A stretch of 64,000 nucleotides of DNA, from assembly GCA_015061905.1 (NCBI GenBank), contig SUVQ01000001.1:1-64000 (forward strand). The letters run 5' to 3'. Made by a program: the position numbers and the translations under genes. Origin of the DNA: Verrucomicrobiota bacterium (GTDB taxonomy: Bacteria > Verrucomicrobiota > Verrucomicrobiia > Opitutales > UBA953). Each line of letters begins with the position of its first letter. Positions within the stretch are counted from its first letter, which is position 1. The notes under the pieces were generated by a model. It saw only the letters and a program-made list of their open reading frames with translations, made no database searches and was not told the DNA's origin. Positions 3,320 to 62,042 of the stretch are shown here, in pieces.

Positions 3320-3540
3320 AATTTGCCGAGGCGTGTGCTTCGGCAAAAGTTTAAAAGCTTAAGAGCTTAGAAGTTTAGTTGTTTCACAAGCGAAACAAGG
3401 AAAAGAATCCTTTTTTTATTTTTATAAAAGTAAAGCTCTCGGCAAAGCCGATTAAACTTTTCAACTTCTTAGCTTTTAAACATTTAACGAATGCGCTGCG
3501 TTCGCTAAATTTCAATTTGCCGAGAAAAACCGTATGCGGT
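3320..3540. repeat. Dispersed fold-back repeat (family B), copy 1
   Basis: Near-identical to 48970-49180; arms TTAAAAGCTTAAGAGCTTAGAAGTTTAG / TTAAACTTTTCAACTTCTTAGCTTTTAA. Confidence 0.8.
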
Positions 3541-5190: not shown

Positions 5191-5391
5191 AGCAGAATCT
5201 CGCGCAAAGACGCAAAATCGCAAAGTTTTTTGCGGTTTATTTTTCCCACGGATAAAACAGATTTTCGCAGATGTCCTGATTCTTCTTCGCGGTTGAATCA
5301 TTCGTGGAAATTCGTGTTTATTCGCGGTTCCTAAAAACATTGCGGCTTAGCGCGTAAAAAAAACGTTCCCGCAACCGAAGCCGCGGGAACG
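5191..5391. repeat. Dispersed intergenic repeat family A, copy 1
   Basis: AGAATCTCGCGCAAAGACGCAAAATCGCAAAG...CATTCGTGGAAATTCGTG... shared with 6266-6479, 59618-59837 and (inverted) 60767-60960. Confidence 0.85.
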
Positions 5392-5394
5392 CTA
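5361..5394 (-). terminator. Terminator made of an inverted GCGGGAACG pair
   Basis: AAAAACGTTCCCGC...GCGGGAACG; poly-T on minus strand after PEP-CTERM gene. Confidence 0.8.
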
Positions 5395-5426
5395 ACCATA
5401 ATCTATGAATTAATATATTACAGAAA

Positions 5427-6101
5427 TTATTTGCGGCGGCGACGCGATGCCACCAACGCAAGCGCGCCAAGCCCAGCAAGCATTCCGAACGCCGACGGCT
5501 CGGGGATCGTCGTGAAAGAACCGCCCGTGATGCCGGAATAAGTGTTGTAACTCTTCGCGCCCCCCATCGTAAGCGCAAATTCCACAGAACCTCCTGCAGA
5601 CACTTCTAAACCGCCCTCACCGAAAGAAATCGTTCCGGCACTCGTCTGACCTCCATAGCCAAGGTTAAACTCAGAGGACGAGACTGATTCTCCGTTGTAT
5701 CCGAGCGTCAGCGTTACAGGGATTGCCGCGTTCTTGTCCGAGCCTCCTCCGTTGATGCCATAGCAATCAAATGCAAACTGAGTCAATACGACATCCTCCG
5801 TTCCGTTGTTGGTAAAAGTGAACTTCATCGTCCAGGAGTCAGTAGTCCCGCTACGAAGTTGCGCATCCGGAGAAAATGTATTCTGGTAAGCGGCATTCGT
5901 GGGAGTCTGCCACGCCCCATCATTGTAATTTCCGCTTCCGTTGTATGCCCAATTTGTATAAGCCAGTTCGAAGCTTGTGGCGTCTAATTCGGAGAACGTA
6001 ATAGTATCGCCAGATCGCTCGATACCAAACTCGATTGTTTCCGCGTTAGCGAATGTTGTTCCGGCGGCGAGGAGCGCCGCGAGTGTTATGTATTTTTTCA
6101 T
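5427..6101 (-). CDS. PEP-CTERM sorting domain protein
   Basis: Signal peptide MKKYITLAALLAAGTTFANA and C-terminal IPEPSAFGMLAGLGALALVASRRRRK. Confidence 0.9.
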   Translation of the reverse strand: MKKYITLAALLAAGTTFANAETIEFGIERSGDTITFSELDATSFELAYTNWAYNGSGNYNDGAWQTPTNAAYQNTFSPDAQLRSGTTDSWTMKFTFTNNGTEDVVLTQFAFDCYGINGGGSDKNAAIPVTLTLGYNGESVSSSEFNLGYGGQTSAGTISFGEGGLEVSAGGSVEFALTMGGAKSYNTYSGITGGSFTTIPEPSAFGMLAGLGALALVASRRRRK

Positions 6102-6265
6102 AATGATTAAGTTTGATTGTGAGTGTTAAAAGTATTTGTGGATAAAAACCGAGACAAACGCGGCGTTACCGCCGATTTGTCCCAATTCTTAGCAGCGATT
6201 GTCGCAAAAAAAAACGTGCCCGTCAAGCACGTTTTGAAAAAAAATCCGTAAATTTCATCAATTAC

Positions 6266-6479
6266 ACAAAAGAATCTCGCGCAAAGACGCAAAATCGCAA
6301 AGTTTTTTGCGGTTTATTTTTCCCACAGATAAAACAGATTTTCTCAGATGTCCTGATTTCTTCTTCGCGGTTGAATCATTCGTGGAAATTCGTGTTGATT
6401 CGCGGTTCCTAAAAACTTCGCGGCTTGGCGGCTTCGCGCGAAAAAAAAAAACGTTCCCGCGACTGAAGCCGCGGGAACG
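6266..6479. repeat. Dispersed intergenic repeat family A, copy 2 (ends in inverted-motif terminator 6452-6479)
   Basis: Same sequence and orientation as copy 1. Confidence 0.85.
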
Positions 6480-6511
6480 CAAAGTTTTTATAATTTCGAG
6501 CAAAGACGTTT

Positions 6512-24013: not shown

Positions 24014-24046
24014 GGAGAACGAGATTAAAGAAACTCGAGCTCAGTC

Positions 24047-24903
24047 AGACATAGGTAACACTTTAGAGTCAGAGATAGGTTACACTTCTAAGGTTACAGA
24101 GAGACTACAAGGTTGGGGATTGGAAGCAAGACTTTGAGTTGTCGAAGAAGAATCCTCCCCTATGACGCCCCCTAGGGGGGGGGGGCGCCGGCCTCGGGAT
24201 GAAGCGCCAGCTCTTCGTCCGAGATAAACTTGGCAATGTCCGAGTGATACTCTCCGAGGAAGACCTCGTAGAGATAAACACTGAAAGCGTCTCCGCTGTC
24301 CCGAGGTAACAATCCGACTGTGTGCTCCCGCAAGGAAGTGCTCAGGAAGACCTGGCGCTTTTGGTCGAGGCAAACACTTCCCACCTTTGTGACTTTACGC
24401 TCCAACATCCCGCGATACTTAAAACGAAGGTTGCAGGAATATTTACGTTCGCTTTTTCTGTAAACATCTGCGGGGACGGCATTGGCTAAAGCCGCATGCG
24501 GACGTTCGCAGTTAAAGCTCTCACGCCACGCGTCCGGCTCTGCTTGGGACGAACAACGATTCGCCTCAAGCAGAAGCATGTCGCGGTGCATGCGTTCGTG
24601 AGTGCTAAGCGTAACTTGATGAGCCGGCTTGCTACCTCTTCGTTCCAGAGAAGATCTGTCTTATCCGGACGCCGAGACCGTTCGTGCAACCCCGGGTCGC
24701 CTTCTTGCTCGTAACGACGCTTCCACTTATAGAGCGTTTTTCGTGATATTGAATAGCGTAAGGCAATCGAACTGACGCTCTCTTGCCCCTGCGCTAATGC
24801 AGCCATTATTTCTTTTTTCATATCGATAACACTTTTGTTTTCCCACGGCATCGCACCGTAGCTTTTAACACAAACCCCCAAAAAGTGTTACCTATCTGTG
24901 AAT
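24047..24903 (-). mobile_element. Degenerate IS481-like element with internal deletion of catalytic core
   Basis: HTH part MPWENKSVIDMKKEIMAAL..ISRKTLYKWKRRYEQEGDPGLHERSRRP and C-terminal WRESFNCERPHAALANAVPADVYRKSERKY; terminal repeats ATAGGTAACACTTT / AAAAAGTGTTACCTAT. Confidence 0.8.
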
Positions 24904-25340
24904 TTCCGCCCAAAAAGGGATAACGGATAGGGTTCTTTATGAAAAAGATTAAAGATGCCGCAGGCACTTTCGGCATCCGCGTTCCACTGCGCCGCAAAAA
25001 CGGCAGGGGCGCAGACACGCCTCCGAGCGGCGCATGACGGTAGAGCCGCTTGCCTGCGGGTTTCGGCTGCGCCACACCCGCGGTTATCCTATGTCGTGCA
25101 CCTCCGGAGCACAGCCTCGAAGAGGCAATTACAAATAGCAAATCCTAAATGCTTATCGCGAAAGTGATAACTGATAGTTGATAACGGATAAGTGAAGACG
25201 CCTGCGGCGAGAGATAAAGCACTAAGCATTGAGTATCAAGGTTACCGATCTCTGGCTTCTTAAGCTTTAAGCTCTTTCTTTAATCTTTGACCTCTCTTAT
25301 CGGACGAATCAAGCAACACACTCCTCCACCGCACGCGGTC

Positions 25341-25375
25341 CACCTCCCCTAACTTAGGGGAGGTGCTTTTTTTAT
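25341..25375 (+). terminator. Rho-independent terminator
   Basis: CACCTCCCCTAA-C-TTAGGGGAGGTG then CTTTTTTTATTT. Confidence 0.75.
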
Positions 25376-25433
25376 TTCCCGATTCGATGCGCCCAAGAGT
25401 TTCCGCGGGACGCGTGCGCTCCCGCGGGTGTCT

Positions 25434-26699
25434 TTACGCGAGGCGGACTTGACCGGAGCCTTCGATCAGATATTTGTAAGTCGTTAAGGCGTCCAAGCCC
25501 ATCGGTCCTCGGGCGTGGAGTTTTTGCGTAGAGATGCCGATTTCGGCACCGAAGCCGAATTGCCCGCCGTCGGTAAAGGCTGTGGACGCATTCGCATAAA
25601 CGCAGGCGGCATCAACGCGTTTCAGAAATTCGGAAACGGCAGCTTCGTTTTCGGCGACAATGGCTTCGCTGTGGTGCGAGCCGTGGCGTGCAATGTGTGC
25701 CAGTGCGTCTTCCAGAGCGGGGACGCAACGGACGCTCATTTTATAATCCAAAAATTCCGTCCCGAAGCTTTCCGGTTTCGCGCGGTGCAACAGTCTTTCG
25801 GGGTAATTTCCCGACAAGGCGTCAAAAGCGCAGTCGTCGGCAAAGATTTCGACATCTTTTTCGGCGAGTTTTCCGCAAATTTCGGGTAAGTCGGCGAGAC
25901 GGGCGGCATGAACGAGCAGACAATCCAACGCGTTACAAACGCTGACCCGGCGTGTCTTGGCGTTGAAAACGATTTCCCGGGCTTTTCCGATATCGGCGGA
26001 AGCATCCGCGTAAACGTGGCAAATGCCGGCTCCGGTTTCGATGACGGGAATACGCGCATTATCACGGACAAAATCAATCAGTGCACGCGAACCGCGCGGG
26101 ATGGCGAGATCGACTTCGCCGACGGCATTCAGAAGCGCCGTTGTTGCTTCGCGCGGCGACGGCAGGAGCGAGCAAACGGCGGGAGGCAATTCTCGGGCGG
26201 CAAGCGCTTTTCTGACGTTTCGGACAAGTGCGTCGTTGGAGGCTTCCGCGTCATGCGATCCTTTCAGGATGCAGGCGTTTCCGCTTTTCAGGCAAAGAGA
26301 AAAAACATCGAGTGTCACGTTGGGGCGTGCTTCGTAAATCACGCCGACAACTCCGATCGGGACGGAAACTTTGCAAATGCGCAAGCCGTTCGGACGGATG
26401 TTTTCCGCAATAATTTTTCCGAGCGGCGACGGCAATTCCGCGACGCTGCGCATGTCCGCCGTGATTGCGGCGAGGCGTTCGCGTGTGATCAGAAGACGAT
26501 CGTATTTCGGATTATCTTTCGCCATACGCGAGCAGTCTTCGCGGTTGGCGGCAAGGATCGCTTCCGCTTCGCGGTCCACGGCATCGGCAACGGCGCAAAG
26601 CGTTTGCGCAATGGCGGAGTCGCTCAGATTGGCGGTTACGAGAGCGGCTTCGCGCGCTTCGGCAAAAATTCGTTTACACGTTTCGGGTACGGATTCCAT
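25434..26699 (-). CDS. proA: Gamma-glutamyl phosphate reductase
   Basis: [35 protein letters not shown]; start at [10 protein letters not shown]. Confidence 0.95.
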
Positions 26700-26781
26700 G
26701 AAACTACTTCGATTGATTCGGGATTGAGAGAAAAGCAGTCGGCAGAAACCGGTTCTGAATTCCGGTCTCGTCGAAAAAAAA

Positions 26782-27843
26782 TTAATCCAGGAAAAGATAA
26801 TCGTAATGAACGACCGGATGCATTTCCTCCGGAGCATTTTCGAGCCAGGAGCTTAATTCCGCCGCCGAGCAAAGGATTTTCCCGCAGCCGATATTTTCGC
26901 CCTGCCCGTTGACGATTCGGACGAGTTCGTCCCGGAAAAATTCGCCGGAGCAACGCAAAACGTCGGCAGCATTCAAACTGCGCGGATGTCCGGAGCGGAG
27001 TTCGTTTTCCGCCGATTCCGTAATTACAATTTCCCGCCGCGCAAAAACACGTTTCCCGGAATCCGGTTTTTCCTCCGGAATAAAACGCGTGCAGAGCGTT
27101 TCCGCCGGATTATCGATTAAATGAAGCAAGATATCTTCCCGCTTTCCGTTGGCAATAACCACGGGAATTCCGCCGGATGCGATGCGCCGCGCAATATTGC
27201 ATTTTGTAATCATGCCGCCGCGTCCGAATTGCGATTTCCCGCGCGTCACGCACATCGAAAAATCATTGTCTTCGGGTTTAATTTCGCGAATGACCCGTGC
27301 GCCGGGCTTGGCGGGATCGCCGTCAAAAATGCCGTCCACATTCGAAAGAATAATCAGCATGTCCGCGTCCATCATTTCGGCGACGAGACCGGAAAGCTCG
27401 TCGTTGTCCGTAAACATCAATTCGGTAATCGAAATGGTGTCGTTTTCGTTGACGATCGGCACGACTCCGTTGGCGAGCATAACGTCCATGCAACGTTTCT
27501 GATTGCGGTAATGCGAGCGTGTCGTAAAAAACTCTTTCGTCGTCAACACTTGTCCGCAAGCGCTTCCGTTGCTCCGGAAAAAATCGAAGTAGCGATTCAT
27601 CAGTTTGGCCTGTCCGACGGCAGAAAAGAGTTGGCGGGCGGAGACGGAATCGAGTCGGTCGGCGGGAATGCGCAACTCACTGCGTCCGGAGGCAACGGCA
27701 CCGGACGAAACCAGCACGACTTCGATGCCGCGTCGGTTAAGTGCGACGACCTGATCGACGATTGCCGACATGCGCGTGACATCGAGTGTACCGTCTTCCC
27801 GTGCCAGGACGTTGGAACCGACTTTTACAGTAATGCGTTTCAT
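26782..27843 (-). CDS. proB: Glutamate 5-kinase with PUA domain
   Basis: [34 protein letters not shown]. Confidence 0.95.
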
Positions 27844-27863
27844 GGGTTTCCGAAGGTAGAAAA

Positions 27864-28649
27864 TTAAAGAGCGGAAGCTTTGAGTCCCGCGATGACGGCG
27901 GGCGTGAATCCGGCGGCTTCCATAGCGTTGAGACCGCGGATCGTTATGCCGCCCGGCGTGGTCACGCGGTCAATCGCCGCTTCGGGATGTTCGCCGCTTT
28001 CTTCGAGCAATTCGACGGCGCCGCGCAAGGTTTGCAAAACAAATTCCCGGGATGCTTCGGGATAGAAGCCGAGTTCAACGCCGCCTTCGCATGCCGCACG
28101 GATGTAGCGCATGGCGAAAGCGATTCCGCAGGAAGCGAGTGCCGTCGCGGCAGCCATTTGTTTTTCTTCGATAAATGCCGTTTTCCCGAGAGCGTTTAAA
28201 ATCGTCTGCACGTATTCGATTTGGGGCTCGGAAGCATTTTTTGCGGCAAAGAACGTCATGCTTTCCCCGCAAGCGGCGGCGGTGTTCGGCATAACGCGGA
28301 AAAGCGTACGCGTTCCCGAATTGCCGAAAAAGGTCTCCAGTTGTTCGAGCGAAATTCCGGCGGCGACGCTTGCGACAATTGTGTTTCCGGAAACGTGTCC
28401 TCGAATTTCTTCGATGATTTTTTCAAGCAGCCACGGTTTGACGCAAAGCAGGATCAAATCCGCGCCTTCTGCGGCGGCTGCGTTGTCGCACGAAACACCA
28501 AGTCCGGGAAAATTCACCGCCAACGCGCTCAGGGTTTCGACGGATTTTGCGGTGCAAACGATTTCTCCGGCGAAGCAAACCCGTTTTGCCAACAATCCGC
28601 GCACGATTGCGCCGCCCATATTTCCGCTTCCGAGTACAGCAATTTTCAT
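27864..28649 (-). CDS. proC: Pyrroline-5-carboxylate reductase
   Basis: MKIAVLGSGNMGGAIVRGLL, RVMPNTAAACGESM, TPGGITIRGL. Confidence 0.95.
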   Translation of the reverse strand: MKIAVLGSGNMGGAIVRGLLAKRVCFAGEIVCTAKSVETLSALAVNFPGLGVSCDNAAAAEGADLILLCVKPWLLEKIIEEIRGHVSGNTIVASVAAGISLEQLETFFGNSGTRTLFRVMPNTAAACGESMTFFAAKNASEPQIEYVQTILNALGKTAFIEEKQMAAATALASCGIAFAMRYIRAACEGGVELGFYPEASREFVLQTLRGAVELLEESGEHPEAAIDRVTTPGGITIRGLNAMEAAGFTPAVIAGLKASAL

Positions 28650-28714
28650 ACGCGTGTTTTTTATCACTTTGCAAAGCTTCCCGCAAGCGGGCGATAGAGG
28701 GGAAAGATCTTAAA

Positions 28715-28800
28715 GATTAGAGTTTAAAGATTAAAGAAACTCAGAAGAAGCGTTCCCGTGGTGCATTTCGCGGGAACGCTTTTTTGTGCGAGAAGGAATC
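28715..28800 (+). repeat. Direct repeat copy 1 flanking PEP-CTERM metalloprotease gene
   Basis: AAGCGTTCCCGTGGTGCATTTCGCGGGAACGCTTTTT..AAGGAAT, identical hairpin to 30183-30230. Confidence 0.8.
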
Positions 28801-28929
28801 ACTTTATAAAAGTTTGTTCCTGACCACTCCACGCAGGATAAAACCTGCGTTCCTGTGCGACGAGTTGCAATATTCTTGATTCTCCGTGTCGGCTTTGTTC
28901 TTCTTTCGTTACCTCCCCTTATTTACCCT

Positions 28930-30159
28930 ATGTCTTATTTCAAAAAAAAATTGTCGTTAGGCGTATTGTCTGCAATTTGCGTTGTTGCTTCCCCAATTGC
29001 ACATGCGGTTGAAATTGATACGAGTTCCAATGCCGTGTTTGACCTTTATTTTTTCGGCAACGGAGAAGTCGCTCAACTCGGCGAAAATCTTTCCGGATTT
29101 AAGGATTACAACACCGGATTGGATTCCCAACAGATTACCGGATGGACGGATTGGACGGGAACGCCTTCAGTCGCCAACGAAAATTCTTGGACACAGGCGC
29201 AGAAACAGGCGATGACGGAAGCCGTTGCAGCATGGACTGACGCAATCCGAAACGTCTACGATACTCAAGGCGGGACACGTCGGAAAATGCGTATCGGCTT
29301 TTTTCTTGATGACGCGACGCGAAGCGAGTCGCTTATGGAAACATCAATGACCGGCTACGCTTCTTACGCAACGACGACTTCTGACTTTGCAAACGGAAGT
29401 CCCGTAAATCTGTATTCGGTTCCGGAATGGCTGTGGCGAGACGGGAAGTCAGCGACAGTCTCTCCGCCGAGCTCTTCAACATCGGGCTCGTTTTGGAATT
29501 ACAATTTGCTCCCTAATGCGGAAAATTGCATTGAAGTCGCGATTGTCATTAATCCGGAACAGCTTGTTTATTCGAATGGTCTGGCAACGCGAGTGGAGCG
29601 GTCTGCGGAAGACCTCAAAAAAGTCGCAATGCACGAACTCGGACATGCCATGGGAATGGACAGCAAAATGTATACCGCAAGCGAAGCGTATCCGAAATCT
29701 AATTTGGTAACCACGTGGGACTCGCTGATGATGATTGGAGAAAACCAACGTGTTATTACGCTCGGTCCAGACGGAAAATTAGATTATGCCTATGAAAATT
29801 TTCGCCTGCTTTGCGCTGAAGGCTGGTCGCTTTACGAGGCTTGGTTTAATTCAGGCGAAGGCGAAGAAAAATTAATCCGCCTACAAAATGCCGACGGCGA
29901 AGTTGTGAATCTTTTGGTTACGGCGGGAACGAACGTGGAAGGAAATTCGCTGGTTCACCTTTTAGGTGAACTCGGAAAGCAAAACGATGTTCTCGGTCCC
30001 GGCGGACTACAAGGCGCAGAATTTACGGAGCTTGATTTAACTGCGTTGCGTATGCTCGGTTGGCAGGTTGCCATTCCCGAGCCGTCCGTTTTCGGATTGC
30101 TTGCGAGTCTGGGCGCATTCGTGCTCGTCGGTGTCCGCCGCAGGAAAAGGAACATTTAA
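28930..30159 (+). CDS. PEP-CTERM protein with HExxHxxGxxx zinc-metalloprotease motif
   Basis: AMHELGHAMGMDS; IPEPSVFGLLASLGAFVLVGVRRRKRN; signal peptide from MSYFKKKLS. Confidence 0.85.
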   Translation: MSYFKKKLSLGVLSAICVVASPIAHAVEIDTSSNAVFDLYFFGNGEVAQLGENLSGFKDYNTGLDSQQITGWTDWTGTPSVANENSWTQAQKQAMTEAVAAWTDAIRNVYDTQGGTRRKMRIGFFLDDATRSESLMETSMTGYASYATTTSDFANGSPVNLYSVPEWLWRDGKSATVSPPSSSTSGSFWNYNLLPNAENCIEVAIVINPEQLVYSNGLATRVERSAEDLKKVAMHELGHAMGMDSKMYTASEAYPKSNLVTTWDSLMMIGENQRVITLGPDGKLDYAYENFRLLCAEGWSLYEAWFNSGEGEEKLIRLQNADGEVVNLLVTAGTNVEGNSLVHLLGELGKQNDVLGPGGLQGAEFTELDLTALRMLGWQVAIPEPSVFGLLASLGAFVLVGVRRRKRNI

Positions 30160-30232
30160 AGATTAAAAGAGCTCGAAAGAAAAGCGTTCCCGTGGTGCAT
30201 TTCGCGGGAACGCTTTTTCTGTAAGAAGGAAT
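30155..30232 (+). repeat. Direct repeat copy 2 flanking PEP-CTERM metalloprotease gene
   Basis: AAGCGTTCCCGTGGTGCATTTCGCGGGAACGCTTTTTCTGTAAGAAGGAAT. Confidence 0.8.
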
Positions 30233-48969: not shown

Positions 48970-49180
48970 GCAAATTGAAATTTGTTGCTCGTTTCGAGCA
49001 ACAAATGCTGAAAAGCTTAAGAGCTTAGAAGTTTAGTTGTTTCGCAAGCAAAACAAAGAAAAGAATCCTTTTTATTTTATAAAAGTAAAACTCTCGGCGA
49101 AGCCGATTAAACTTTTCAGCTTCTCTGCTTTTAAACATTTAGCGACCGCGTCGCGTTCGCTAAATTTCTATTTGCGGGAA
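48970..49180. repeat. Dispersed fold-back repeat (family B), copy 2
   Basis: Matches 3320-3540, including the spurious ORF NKEKNPF..FIKVKLSAKPIKLF. Confidence 0.8.
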
Positions 49181-57513: not shown

Positions 57514-58770
57514 ATGAAAACGGATTTTCAAAATAAAGCCGCGCGCGTTCCCGCGAAATTTAAGCCGGAACCGTTCGCCTATCATCAGGAATTGGAGCTC
57601 GAAATCGCGACGCTGACCAACCTCGGCGAAGGCGTCGCGCGGCATGGCGGCTGGGTCATTTTCGTTCCCGGCGCGCTTCCGGGCGAACGCATTCGCGCGC
57701 GCATCTGGCACAACGCGAAAAATTTTTCCCGCGCGGATTTGGTTGAAGTTCTCGTTCCCGCGAGAGAACGCGTCGAGCCGCGTTGCCCGCTTTTCGGCAC
57801 CTGCGGCGGATGCCAGTATCAAAATTTTAATTACGAAGGACAACTTGCCTGGAAAACGCAACAGGTTTCGGATTTGCTCGAACGTCTCGGAAAAATTTCG
57901 TTTCCGGTCAATCCCTGCCGCGGCTCGCCGAAGCAATACGGCTACCGCTCGAAAATCACGCCGCACTTCGAACGTCCGCGCCAAGGCGAAAAGGATTTTC
58001 CCATCGGCTTTCTCGCCGCGGGAACGTCGCGCCGCATCGTCGATGTGCCCGCCTGCCCGATCGCGACCGACGCCGTCAACGCCGCGCTCCCGCGCCTGCG
58101 CGAGCAAATGCGTTCCCGCGCCGCCCGAGGGGAATTTCGTCGCGGCGTAACAATGCTCATTCGCGAAACGCTCGAAGGAATCGCGACCGACCACAAAGCG
58201 CCTGTTTCCGAGCGCGTCGGCGATTTGGTTTTAAAATTCGTTGCCGGAGATTTTTTCCAAAACAATCCGTTTATTCTTCCGGAATTTGTCGACTTCGGCG
58301 TGCGCGCCGCGCGCGGGAACGGCGAGTGTAAATATCTTGTAGATACATATTGCGGGAGCGGTCTTTTCGCGCTTTCCGCCGCGAAGTATTTTGAAAAAGT
58401 GCTCGGCGTGGAAGTCAGCGAAGACGCCGTTGTTAAAGCACGCGAGAACGCAAAATCCAACGGGCTGAGCAACTGCGAATTTACGGCGGGCTCCTCGGAA
58501 ATTATTTTCGCGAAAGTGCCGTTTTCGCCGGACGAAACCGCGCTCATCATCGACCCGCCGCGCAAAGGTTGCGACGAAGCGTTTATCTCGCAGCTGCTCG
58601 CGTTCGCGCCGCGCCGCGTCGTTTACGTTTCCTGCGGTCCGGACACGCAGGCGCGCGACCTGCAGATGATTCTCGCAAGCGGGAAATACGCGCTTGAGGA
58701 AGTCCAGCCCTTCGACTTGTTCCCGCAAACGCGCCACATCGAAAACATCGCCGTTCTCGTGCGAAAATGA
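57514..58770 (+). CDS. Class I SAM-dependent RNA methyltransferase (TrmA/RlmD-like)
   Basis: CPLFGTCGGCQYQNF, VDTYCGSGLFALSAA, IIDPPRKGCDEAF, VYVSCGPDTQARDL. Confidence 0.9.
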   Translation: MKTDFQNKAARVPAKFKPEPFAYHQELELEIATLTNLGEGVARHGGWVIFVPGALPGERIRARIWHNAKNFSRADLVEVLVPARERVEPRCPLFGTCGGCQYQNFNYEGQLAWKTQQVSDLLERLGKISFPVNPCRGSPKQYGYRSKITPHFERPRQGEKDFPIGFLAAGTSRRIVDVPACPIATDAVNAALPRLREQMRSRAARGEFRRGVTMLIRETLEGIATDHKAPVSERVGDLVLKFVAGDFFQNNPFILPEFVDFGVRAARGNGECKYLVDTYCGSGLFALSAAKYFEKVLGVEVSEDAVVKARENAKSNGLSNCEFTAGSSEIIFAKVPFSPDETALIIDPPRKGCDEAFISQLLAFAPRRVVYVSCGPDTQARDLQMILASGKYALEEVQPFDLFPQTRHIENIAVLVRK

Positions 58771-59537
58771 GCGTTCCCGCAAACAGAGAAATCGACGTTC
58801 CCGGCGTAAAAAATTTTCGCGACCTCGGCGGACTTATCGGCGAAAACGGAAAACGCGTGCGCCGGGGACTCGTTTTTCGAAGCGCGAAACTTGATAAAAT
58901 CACACCGGAAGGCGAAGCCGTATTGGACAGGCTCGGCATACGCACCATCGTCGATTTCCGCTCTCCCGGCGAACAGCGCAGAAACCCGACGCGTTACGAA
59001 CGCGGGAACGTCCGGCAAATTCGCCTGCCTGTTTTCAAAGACACACCGGAAGGCTATTTCGAAGAACGGCTCACGCCCGGGCTCACGCCGCAAGGCGCGC
59101 TTGCGCTGATGGAGGCGGCAAACCGCTCGTTCGCGCGGGAACGCTGTGAAGCTTTTCGGGATTTTTTTGAACTTTTTAATGATGAGAAGAATTTCCCGCT
59201 CGTCTTCCATTGCACCGGCGGGAAAGACCGCACCGGCTTTGCCGCCGCGATGATTTACTCCGCGCTCGGCGTTTCCGACGCTGATATTCGGGCGGATTTT
59301 TTGCTCTCTCAAAAAAATACGATTCCGCGCACCGAGCGTTCCGTGCACCGCTTTCTCGAAATCGTTCCCGCAGAAACCTTGGACGTGTTGCTGACCGTTT
59401 TCCCTCAGTTTTTAGACGCCGCCTTAAATGAAATAAACAACGACTGGGGAACGCGGGAACGCTTTTTGAGAGACGCGCTCGGTCTTACGCCGGAACGCGC
59501 GGAAAGACTGCGCCGGTTCCTCCTCGCCGAAAAATAA
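58767..59537 (+). CDS. Tyrosine-protein phosphatase
   Basis: NFRDLGGL, RRGLVFRSAKLDK, FHCTGGKDRTGFAAAMI. Confidence 0.9.
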   Translation: MSVPANREIDVPGVKNFRDLGGLIGENGKRVRRGLVFRSAKLDKITPEGEAVLDRLGIRTIVDFRSPGEQRRNPTRYERGNVRQIRLPVFKDTPEGYFEERLTPGLTPQGALALMEAANRSFARERCEAFRDFFELFNDEKNFPLVFHCTGGKDRTGFAAAMIYSALGVSDADIRADFLLSQKNTIPRTERSVHRFLEIVPAETLDVLLTVFPQFLDAALNEINNDWGTRERFLRDALGLTPERAERLRRFLLAEK

Positions 59538-59617
59538 AAAACCACGAATAGACGCGAATTTTCACGAAGTATTTTCGTGTAAAGCCATCGCCTTCCGTGG
59601 CTCTTTATTTTCTTATT

Positions 59618-59837
59618 TCGCGCAAAGACGCTGAGACGCGAAGTTTTTTTTGCGGTTTATTTTTCCCACGGATGAAACAGATACTCACAGATGTCCTGAT
59701 TTCATCTTCGCGTTAAAAAGCATTCGTGAAAATTCGTGGTTATTCGCGGTTTCTTTTTTTTCCTATTTTTTAAAAACTTCGCGGCTTTGCGGCTTAGCGC
59801 GAAAAAAAACGTTCCCGCGACCGAAGCCGCGGGAACG
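59618..59837. repeat. Dispersed repeat family A, copy 3 (ends in inverted-motif terminator 59810-59837)
   Basis: CGCGCAAAGACG..GCGGTTTATTTTTCCCACGGATGAAACAG..AAATTCGTGGTTATTCGCGG. Confidence 0.85.
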
Positions 59838-59872
59838 CTAACCATAATCTATGAATTAATATATTACAGAAA

Positions 59873-60592
59873 TTATTTGCGGCGGCGACGCGATGCCACC
59901 AACGCCAACGCGCCCAAGCCCGCAAGCATTCCGAACGCCGACGGCTCCGGAACAACGCTTACTTCTTGCTTAATAGTTTTTAAGCCGACAAAGGTTCCAT
60001 TATCAAGGGTTTCCGTTAGAGCTAACTTCATCGTAAAAGAATCTGTAGAGCTAAGATCAACGGCAGACGCACTGCTCAAGCTGACTGTAAAGGGGGTTGA
60101 ACCCTGACCTTGTTTCGGAATCAACGAACCCCCAAACGAGCCAAGTTCAAGGTCGTTTTCATCAAGAATCGTCGCTGTAAAGGTAATGGATCCTTCCCAT
60201 ACAGCAGCCCACTGCCCCCCTTGTTGATAAGCTCCGGAGGAGTTAAACAAGACGACATCAAGCCCGATGCTTTGCAAGCTTTTCACTTCTACCGTGCCGC
60301 CCAGCGTATACTTAAATTCTGCCGTCCAAGGCGCCCCGGTTCCGACATTCGTATCGGGAGAAAAAATCGCGGCGTCCGTTCCAGCCGTGCCGGCGGTCTT
60401 AATAGACACGTTCCCAGCACTATTTACCAAAGAAACCACATCGGCAGTTACACCTTCCAATCCTTCAACAGATAACTCGACATCAGCCACGGACGATTGA
60501 TTAGCGGTACCGAACGTTGTCGTAAGAGTTTCCGCGTTAGCGAATGTTGTTCCGGCGGCGAGGAGTGCCGCGAGTGTTATGTATTTTTTCAT
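59873..60592 (-). CDS. PEP-CTERM sorting domain protein, paralogous ends to 5427-6101
   Basis: Identical MKKYITLAALLAAGTTFANAET and PEPSAFGMLAGLGALALVASRRRRK; unrelated middle. Confidence 0.9.
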   Translation of the reverse strand: MKKYITLAALLAAGTTFANAETLTTTFGTANQSSVADVELSVEGLEGVTADVVSLVNSAGNVSIKTAGTAGTDAAIFSPDTNVGTGAPWTAEFKYTLGGTVEVKSLQSIGLDVVLFNSSGAYQQGGQWAAVWEGSITFTATILDENDLELGSFGGSLIPKQGQGSTPFTVSLSSASAVDLSSTDSFTMKLALTETLDNGTFVGLKTIKQEVSVVPEPSAFGMLAGLGALALVASRRRRK

Positions 60593-60766
60593 AATGATTA
60601 AGTTTGATTGTGAGTGTTAAAAGTATTTTGTGGGTAAAAACCGAGACAAACGCGGCGTTCCCGCCGATTTGTCTCAATTCTTAGTGCGGATTGTCGCAAA
60701 AAAAAAAACGTGCCCGTCAAGCACGTTTTGAAAAAAAAAATCCGCAAATTTCACCAGTTACACAAA

Positions 60767-60960
60767 AGAATCTCGCGCAAAGCCGCGAAGACGCGAAGTT
60801 TTAAAAGAGGTAAGAAACCACGAATAACCACGAATTTTCACGAATGCTTTTTAACGCAAAGAAGAAATCAGGACATCTGTGAGTATCTGTTTCATCCGTG
60901 GGAAAAATAAACCGCAAAAAAACTTTGCGGCTTTGCGCGAAAAAAAACGTTCCCGCGACT
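60767..60960. repeat. Dispersed repeat family A, copy 4 (inverted relative to copy 3)
   Basis: AACCACGAATAACCACGAATTTTCACG..CATCCGTGGGAAAAATAAACCGC..GCGCGAAAAAAAACGTTCCCGCG. Confidence 0.8.
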
Positions 60961-61046: not shown

Positions 61047-62042
61047 ATGCACGATATCTCGCAAGGAAAAATCCTCGTTACCGGCGGCTCCGGGCTTATC
61101 GGAAGCGCCATCATCGCCCGCCTAAACGCCCTCGGGCACACAAACATTCTCGTAACCGACAAGCTCGGCACGGATTTGCGCTACAAAAACCTCGTTCCGC
61201 TCAAATTCGCCGAATACATGGAATACGAGGATTTCGACCGCGCGCTTGAAAGCGATCCCGCGCAGTTTGCCGACATTAAAACGATTTTCCACCTCGGAGC
61301 CTGCTCCGCAACGACGGAAAAAGACTGCACTTACCTCATTCACAACAATTACGAATACACGAAAAAGCTCGCCGTGTTCGCGCTCGGAAACGGCGCGCGC
61401 TTCGTTTACGCCTCCTCCGCCGCGACTTACGGGAACGGCGAAAACGGCATGGACGACGAAGGCGACATCCTTCCGCTCAAGCCGCTCAATATGTATGGCT
61501 ATTCGAAACATCTTTTCGACCTGCACGCGTTGCGCAACGGCTACCTGAACAAAATCACGGGCATCAAATATTTCAACGTTTTCGGTCCGAACGAAAACCA
61601 CAAGGCGCACATGGTCAGCATGGTTTTCCGCGCGTTTAACCAAATCAGGGAAACCGGCGGCGTGAAGCTTTTCAAAAGCTACAAGCCGGAATACGCGGAC
61701 GGCTGCCAGATGCGCGATTTTCTCGGCGCGAAAGAAGCGGCAGCGATTACCGTGCATCTTGCGCAAAACGAGGAAGCGACGGGCTTGGTCAATGTCGGTG
61801 CGGGCAAGGCGCGCACTTGGCTCGAACTCGTGCGCCCGATTTTCGCGGCGATGGGCGTTCCCGAAAAAATCGAATTTATCGACATGCCGGAATCGCTTCG
61901 CGCGCAGTATCAGTATTTTACGCAGGCGAAAATCGACAAGCTGACACGCTTGGGCGGCGCACAATATCTCGTCCCGCTCGAAGAATCCGTTACCGACTAC
62001 GTCAAAAACTACCTTATTCCCGACAAGCATCTCGGCGAATAA
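61047..62042 (+). CDS. hldD: ADP-L-glycero-D-manno-heptose 6-epimerase
   Basis: ILVTGGSGLIGSAII, HLGACSATTEKDCTYLIHNNYEYTK, FNVFGPNENHK. Confidence 0.93.
   Translation: MHDISQGKILVTGGSGLIGSAIIARLNALGHTNILVTDKLGTDLRYKNLVPLKFAEYMEYEDFDRALESDPAQFADIKTIFHLGACSATTEKDCTYLIHNNYEYTKKLAVFALGNGARFVYASSAATYGNGENGMDDEGDILPLKPLNMYGYSKHLFDLHALRNGYLNKITGIKYFNVFGPNENHKAHMVSMVFRAFNQIRETGGVKLFKSYKPEYADGCQMRDFLGAKEAAAITVHLAQNEEATGLVNVGAGKARTWLELVRPIFAAMGVPEKIEFIDMPESLRAQYQYFTQAKIDKLTRLGGAQYLVPLEESVTDYVKNYLIPDKHLGE

Follow-up and report, generated by a model that had tools for sequence, protein, structure and literature searches.

Replacement in place of the mature domains of PEP-CTERM genes between sister species of an Opitutales genus

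PEP-CTERM genes at the same chromosomal site in sister species of one Opitutales genus were found to have had their centres replaced in place, with the joints lying in or beside the codons of the sorting signals. We consider it very probable that the mature domain is exchanged in place by homologous recombination through the shared ends of these genes, at times with rearrangement of the chromosome. According to this proposal, the PEP-CTERM genes would be fixed expression-and-sorting frames, each keeping its chromosomal site, promoter-like leader, signal-peptide codons, PEP-CTERM codons and terminator, and the mature domain would be swapped as a unit, with the shared ends acting as recombination arms. 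A double crossover or gene conversion would leave both flanks in place; a single ectopic crossover would change one flank and rearrange the chromosome as well. The agent would presumably be RecA-type homologous recombination, and the benefit a rapid change of exported proteins that face gut glycans, phages or the host.

The window is the stretch of 64,000 nucleotides analysed here, bases 1-64000 of contig C10 of the source genome (G000), a 2.08-Mb draft in 17 contigs that is 98% complete. The G000 sequence examined consisted of the stretches around PEP-CTERM loci, and L-numbers denote the loci holding the fetched genes. Comparisons were made with G004 and G007, two sister species of the same genus represented by one draft MAG each. 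Flanks that are nearly unique in the genome were used to decide site orthology independently of the gene; such flanks are approximately 92-97% identical between G000 and G007.

The gene around which the analysis was built, L106, and its partner in the window, L136, are described in the table. The L106 protein scored above the cut-offs of both TIGR02595 (18.2 bits against 16) and PF07589 (23.9 against 20.7). Its N-terminus has the MKK, hydrophobic stretch and ANA of a signal peptide, as judged by inspection and a simple hydrophobicity score, and its C-terminus carries the PEP motif, a hydrophobic stretch and a basic cluster. A single exosortase, a 373-aa ORF at L309:6512-7633 on the minus strand, was found in G000; it scored 59.8 bits with TIGR04178 (cut-off 23) and 67.2 bits with TIGR02602, below the cut-off of 105.55. 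With tail, signal peptide and an exosortase in the genome, the L106 product is a predicted exosortase substrate. Upstream of the gene, consensus resemblance points to a promoter-like element consisting of TTGACG (60715-60720), a 19-nt spacer with a run of 11 T, and TGCGACAAT, an extended -10-like sequence with the -10 at 60690-60695. Downstream, the terminator hairpin is an inverted GTTCCCGC pair (59811-59818 and 59829-59836) followed by a T run. The GTTCCCGC sequence occurs 150 times in the window, against 5 copies expected (for example, 5365-5390 and 59811-59836).

Table. Features of the L106 and L136 loci (window coordinates)
Feature	Position	Strand	Remark
L106 PEP-CTERM protein gene, 239 aa	59873..60592	-	ORF; PF07589 and TIGR02595 above cut-off
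L106 signal-peptide codons MKKYITLAALLAAGTTFANA, putative 5' arm	60533..60592	-	kept in ~17 G000 genes
L106 mature centre, putatively exchangeable part	59954..60532	-	
L106 PEP-CTERM sorting-signal codons VPEPSAFGMLAGLGALALVASRRRRK and stop, putative 3' arm	59873..59953	-	
L106 3' UTR and terminator hairpin	59810..59872	-	conserved in ~40 genome copies
L106 leader and promoter-like module	60593..60772	-	consensus resemblance
Repeat A copy 3, downstream side of L106	59613..59802	.	
Repeat A copy 4	60773..60945	.	inverted relative to copy 3
Partner PEP-CTERM gene L136, 224 aa	5427..6101	-	ends as in L106
L136 3' block	5364..5504	-	
L136 5' block	6037..6306	-	
Repeat A copy 1	5194..5395	.	
Repeat A copy 2	6271..6483	.	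direct relative to copy 1

A sequence-only reading of the window had proposed that L106 and L136 share both ends at the nucleotide level around unrelated centres. The shared ends were confirmed, and the block coordinates it gave for both loci were correct to within a few bases. The 3' blocks (59810-59950 and 5364-5504) are 96% identical over 141 nt, and a longer run (59615-59950 and 5197-5504) is 84% identical because it includes repeat A. The 5' blocks (60528-60766 and 6037-6270) are 93% identical, and the run reaches 60802 and 6306 with 92% identity over 275 nt (E value of ~1e-109 against the whole window). G000 holds 15 strong copies of the 5' block and about 40 of the 3' block; therefore, the sharing of ends is far beyond chance. 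Between the two centres no nucleotide HSP was detected, and their global identity of 65.8% compares with 64.6 ± 1.8% for shuffled sequence. The centres are unrelated at the level of DNA and BLASTP, but the claim is less certain for an ancient fold: a weak resemblance of the two centre profiles in hhalign (probability 43%, E value 2e-4, 114 columns) suggests that L106 and L136 may be remote homologues. Divergence along the locus is not uniform, identity being high at one end, low in the centre and high again at the other end. Repeat A flanks both loci, as had been noted.

Across the family, TIGR02595 matched 66 open frames in G000, 65 of them above the cut-off and nearly all complete ORFs, compared with 49 matches in G004 and 35 in G007. 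MKKYI-headed genes, about 17 in G000, have a leader common to all, each gene carrying its own promoter-like copy, and other head groups (MKNTLL..., MKTSK...) have shared leaders of their own. In an all-against-all comparison of G000, the upstream regions of 35 genes formed one cluster and the downstream regions of 49 genes another, and the centres fell into many small families and singletons.

The replacement of centres was most evident when the same site was compared between species. At seven G000 sites (L090, L091, L100, L102, L130, L136 and L145) the upstream flank is kept in G007 (88-95%), and homology enters the signal-peptide codons, stops, and restarts at the (V/I)PEP codons. The centres at these sites are unrelated to those in G007, except at L090 and L145, where 38-42% protein identity was found. 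An eighth site, L112, shows a similar pattern with long flanks of 95-96% identity to G007. At orthologous sites, flank, leader and signal peptide are 92-98% identical, the centre is no more similar than background or paralogues, and the PEP-CTERM codons are again at 85-100%. Both flanks are kept at L130, L090 and L145 in G007 and at L119 in G004; these both-flank cases, to which L112 may be added on its long flanks, are few and mutually independent. In the L130 comparison (G007_C11_367797), HSPs gave 94% identity from -983 to +47, no match in the centre, and 93.5% from 79 nt before the stop, followed by flank at 94%; in the L090 comparison (G007_C4_66849), identity was 93.5% up to +66 and 95.4% from 76 nt before the stop. 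The long flanks at these two sites cover 4547 nt at 93% plus 2400 nt at 95% (L130) and 5692 nt at 95.7% (L090). Successive identities along the locus were 94, 96 and 98%, then 51, 43 and 64%, then 98, 100 and 97% for L145 and G007, and 96, 96 and 97%, then 77, 63 and 57%, then 100, 99 and 98% for L119 and G004.

At L100, L102, L091, L136 and L106 the same HSP pattern was seen on one side in G007. L106 has its downstream flank (a phosphatase-like gene, 58767-59537) and both end blocks in common with G007_C9_204851, and the centre is unrelated. At L102 and L091 the 3' flank differs as well, which is a crossover with rearrangement and not a clean replacement. The L130 site holds three mutually unrelated centres in three species, and the centres of swapped pairs are unrelated both by BLASTP and by hhalign. 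Control loci behaved as ordinary orthologues: the centres of L132, L088 and L092 in G007 and of L136 in G004 are 91-97% identical in nucleotide sequence and in the same frames. L136 has an orthologue in G004 (92% aa identity in the centre) and is replaced in G007. Among MKKYI sites with a recognisable flank in G007, six are replaced and three retained, a tally that excludes L095, which is not MKKYI. The phrase "cassette-style diversification of exported proteins", used in the sequence-only reading, is a fair description supported by these same-site comparisons, with the amendment that the ends are mostly inherited with the chromosomal site and the moving part is the centre.

In 11 comparisons, homology at the 5' end was lost between +47 and +72, counted from the start codon, and reappeared on the 3' side 76 to 87 nt before the stop, or 115 nt in one case; the joints coincide with the end of the signal peptide and with the (V/I)PEP codons. 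All paralogues conserve the end codons, and the ends of the arms therefore cannot by themselves show where the crossovers lie. In their leaders, however, L130, L100 and L091 are as similar as expected for the same site (94-96%, the 100th percentile of 127 non-site pairs, with the centres at the 24th-55th percentile), arguing that exchange took place downstream of the leader. Mosaic breakpoints were also found, at the junction of signal peptide and mature part and at the start of the PEP-CTERM region, and one gene, G007_C1_46854, has crossovers inside those codons. Its leader and the first half of its signal peptide resemble same-site L102 of G000 up to approximately +30, and the second half and the centre resemble G004_C20_172800, at another site, from approximately +35; diagnostic bases place the 5' switch within +24 to +44. 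On the 3' side the switch falls at the PEP-CTERM codons; type-specific PEP-CTERM codons and 3' UTR follow, and beyond them the downstream flank matches a third locus, G004_C20_216283.

PEP-CTERM loci are synteny breakpoints as well. In G007 a single PEP-CTERM gene has on one side the trmA-like and phosphatase-like genes that make up the left flank of the 60-kb locus, and on the other the response regulator and kinase from the right flank of the 5.4-kb locus. G007_C9_77194 combines the upstream flank of L091 with the downstream flank of L116, and G007_C8_60403 combines the upstream flank of L127 with the downstream flank of L111. The heptose-epimerase gene (61047-62042) is preceded in G007 by repeat A and, before that, by sequence from the L091 downstream flank. 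Ectopic crossovers between shared ends or copies of repeat A would be expected to produce junctions of this kind, but single junctions could be assembly errors (mis-joins at repeats) instead. Repeat A marks several rearrangement junctions, but it is not specific to PEP-CTERM genes, since many but not all of its 57 matches in G000 adjoin them, and it is at best a helper. L116 (C14:88-1907) and L099 (C14:114877-116642) are headless tails, with sorting-signal codons and terminator and no gene start; they are likely crossover scars. Such tails are few among the 66 PEP-CTERM matches of G000, and the downstream flank of L116 is that of a complete gene in G007. A second interspersed repeat, unrelated to repeat A, occurs at 3344-3520 and 49002-49175 (88% over 177 nt) and also upstream of the heptose-epimerase gene in G007.

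Orthologous centres of the MKKYI-type genes of G000 were found for 3 of 18 in G007 and for 1 of 18 in G004. No orthologue of the L106 centre was detected in the whole G004 or G007 genome; its distant paralogues are in contig C13 of G000 (42%) and in G002 (39%), and it is absent from other genus members. As to the direction and source of transfer, no near-identical centre pair occurs within any one genome, and no pair in G000 is a recent copy (best 63% aa); we therefore infer that the donors lie outside the genome, presumably in other strains or species. LamG (PF13385) was identified in the centres of L130, L102 and G007_C5_194949, and most other centres have no Pfam family. The family itself changes at some sites, L130 and L102 having LamG and their G007 partners none, and L100 lacking the LamG of its G007 counterpart. 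Models of the L106 and L136 centres were all-beta at low confidence (mean pLDDT 56.5 and 61.9). A fold could not be assigned to them by Foldseek, in which CBM61, CBM6 and other beta-sandwiches reached query-normalised TM scores of only ~0.2-0.4. The proteins concerned would be largely beta-sheet and in part lectin-like (LamG), and a glycan-binding role is plausible.

We weighed other explanations of these patterns. In tandem duplication with differential loss, deletion between direct repeats would leave a different gene in each lineage, and deletion between shared heads would likewise yield a head-to-centre mosaic. PEP-CTERM genes are indeed found in tandem clusters (G000 C10:311-316 kb, with a counterpart in G004), and this course was inferred for Nostoc and Anabaena by Haft et al. 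2006 (PMC1569441). However, tandem copies are absent from every swapped MKKYI site in all three genomes, and at L130, L090, L145 and L119, four independent sites that keep both flanks, the genes would have had to be tandem in an ancestor and then be lost reciprocally. Recombination between shared ends would still be required, and we regard this course as unlikely. Simple duplication in which the centre drifts fast and the ends are held by strong purifying selection, without any recombination, is hardly credible. Selection on sorting signals and promoter is to be expected, and the same-site centres of L090 and L145 do retain some similarity; yet at six sites no protein similarity between the centres can be detected, while identity in the non-coding leader, 3' UTR and flanks is 92-98%. 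Drift is contradicted further by the L090 centre, which has a 69% aa relative at another G007 site against 38% at its own, and by the G007 gene at the L102 site, whose centre is 86% identical to that at a different G004 site.

An assembly artefact, in which short metagenomic reads led to the joining of different PEP-CTERM genes through their common ends, is very unlikely. The exact shared stretches reach tens of bases, the sister genomes are MAGs, and one-sided flank changes resemble single mis-joins, but two mis-joins would be needed for each both-flank replacement, and shuffled G000 centres should recur in G007 or G004, whereas the L106 centre is absent from both and most MKKYI centres have no orthologue in either. 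The tight clustering of joints at two sorting signals might suggest a dedicated site-specific or programmed system, such as a recombinase or a diversity-generating retroelement. We consider this highly improbable, given that no recombinase or reverse transcriptase was found beside the loci read, that the joints vary by tens of bases inside ordinary codons, and that the exchanged parts are whole unrelated domains of different length and not point changes.

Homologous recombination through the shared ends can be set beside what is known of PEP-CTERM genes. Haft et al. 2006 (PMC1569441) described PEP-CTERM sets with scarce homologues and rapid turnover, explained by duplication and loss: 65 copies occur in the Verrucomicrobium spinosum genome, and Nostoc and Anabaena have 27 orthologous pairs and 29 proteins unique to one species. 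The loci studied here resemble those sets in signal peptide, diverse centre, PEP-TM-basic tail, copy number and exosortase, and in being single genes with long upstream regions, many of them without orthologues in close relatives; unlike that protein-level study, they show separate histories of ends and centres in the DNA of the same site. Conserved ends around a variable centre are also known from the MASP family of Trypanosoma cruzi, a eukaryotic parasite (PMC5636173); its centres are described as short motifs in varying combination, whereas at our loci the exchanged parts are whole unrelated domains. In Anaplasma msp2 and Borrelia vlsE (PMC4534519), a centre between conserved 5' and 3' ends is likewise replaced by homologous recombination or gene conversion, but from related silent donors into one expression site, whereas our loci are dozens of complete genes with their own leaders, their centres often belong to unrelated families, and the comparison is between species. 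No single expression site with silent donor copies was found in G000.

In the literature searched, which did not extend to subscription papers, we found no report of PEP-CTERM genes whose centres are replaced in place, nor any treatment of PEP-CTERM together with gene conversion; PEP-CTERM papers that mention recombination appear, in the portions available, to concern other matters. Rapid PEP-CTERM turnover is known, and in-place replacement of the centre seems to be new within that literature. Several S-layer sapA homologues of Campylobacter fetus have upstream sequence and the 5' end of the coding region in common and recombine within these parts; however, only the 5' end is shared and inversion changes expression, whereas the PEP-CTERM loci share both ends. 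Recombination through shared ends offers a concrete mechanism for the fast change of PEP-CTERM proteins and the near-absence of homologues beyond the tail. If it is general, PEP-CTERM orthology calls would be misleading, as site, leader and tail disagree with the centre, and the exported glycan-binding domains of gut bacteria would be exchangeable as modules. It predicts that, within one species, different strains carry different centres between constant ends.

The possibility that the leader is a structured cis-regulatory RNA was rejected, as two-sided changes were found in none of 7 predicted pairs and there was no covariation; Rfam gave no match in the window besides tRNAs. A run of 9-12 T lies in the -35/-10-like spacer of every aligned MKKYI copy and varies in length among paralogues and species, which is no more than suggestive of a phase-variable putative promoter acting by T-run slippage. 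Species-wide concerted evolution of the ends was likewise rejected: the within-species excess is just 2-3 points, in leader and PEP-CTERM codons only, and among 35 MKKYI genes of three species the nearest neighbours are no more often from the same species than expected. One hint of it, the PEP-CTERM codons of L136 and its G004 orthologue (85% identical, against 94-99% between paralogues), is kept only as a local conversion.

In G000 the 10-mer GCGTTCCCGC is present in 2235 copies, evenly on the two strands (1119/1116), whereas the reversed control has 17. Five other genus members have 1591-2455 copies and two more only 334 and 138, and no other genus tried exceeds background. The 10-mer lies in all reading frames of 19 genes at a density equal to that of the window as a whole, and inverted pairs of it form terminators. 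It may be a DNA-uptake-sequence-like or HIP1-like element; a literature search on it found no paper. ComEC, common in bacteria, is present. That natural transformation, directed by GCGTTCCCGC, supplies these frames with ligand-binding domains from neighbouring strains, leaving expression and sorting unchanged, is a doubtful extension of our proposal, and uptake of foreign DNA as the driver of exchange, suggested by GCGTTCCCGC and ComEC, is a lead and not a result.

Some other differences between the species were noted. Window positions 24032-28697 (24.0-28.7 kb; proline-biosynthesis-like genes and a transposase-like region) are absent from G004, as judged against L232 (G004:C20:275376-278096), where the flanks are joined directly upstream of a PEP-CTERM metalloprotease-like gene (28855-30159); an 86% direct repeat (28723-28799 and 30155-30232) brackets this gene. 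L123 (G000:C3:59107-63410) and G007_C11_156633 are 98% identical over the coding sequence only (-32 to stop+6), and G007_C5_219394 and G004_C22_52172 are 90% identical, again over the coding sequence only (-11 to stop-7). The leaders and flanks of both pairs are unrelated, whole coding sequences having been relocated under other leaders.
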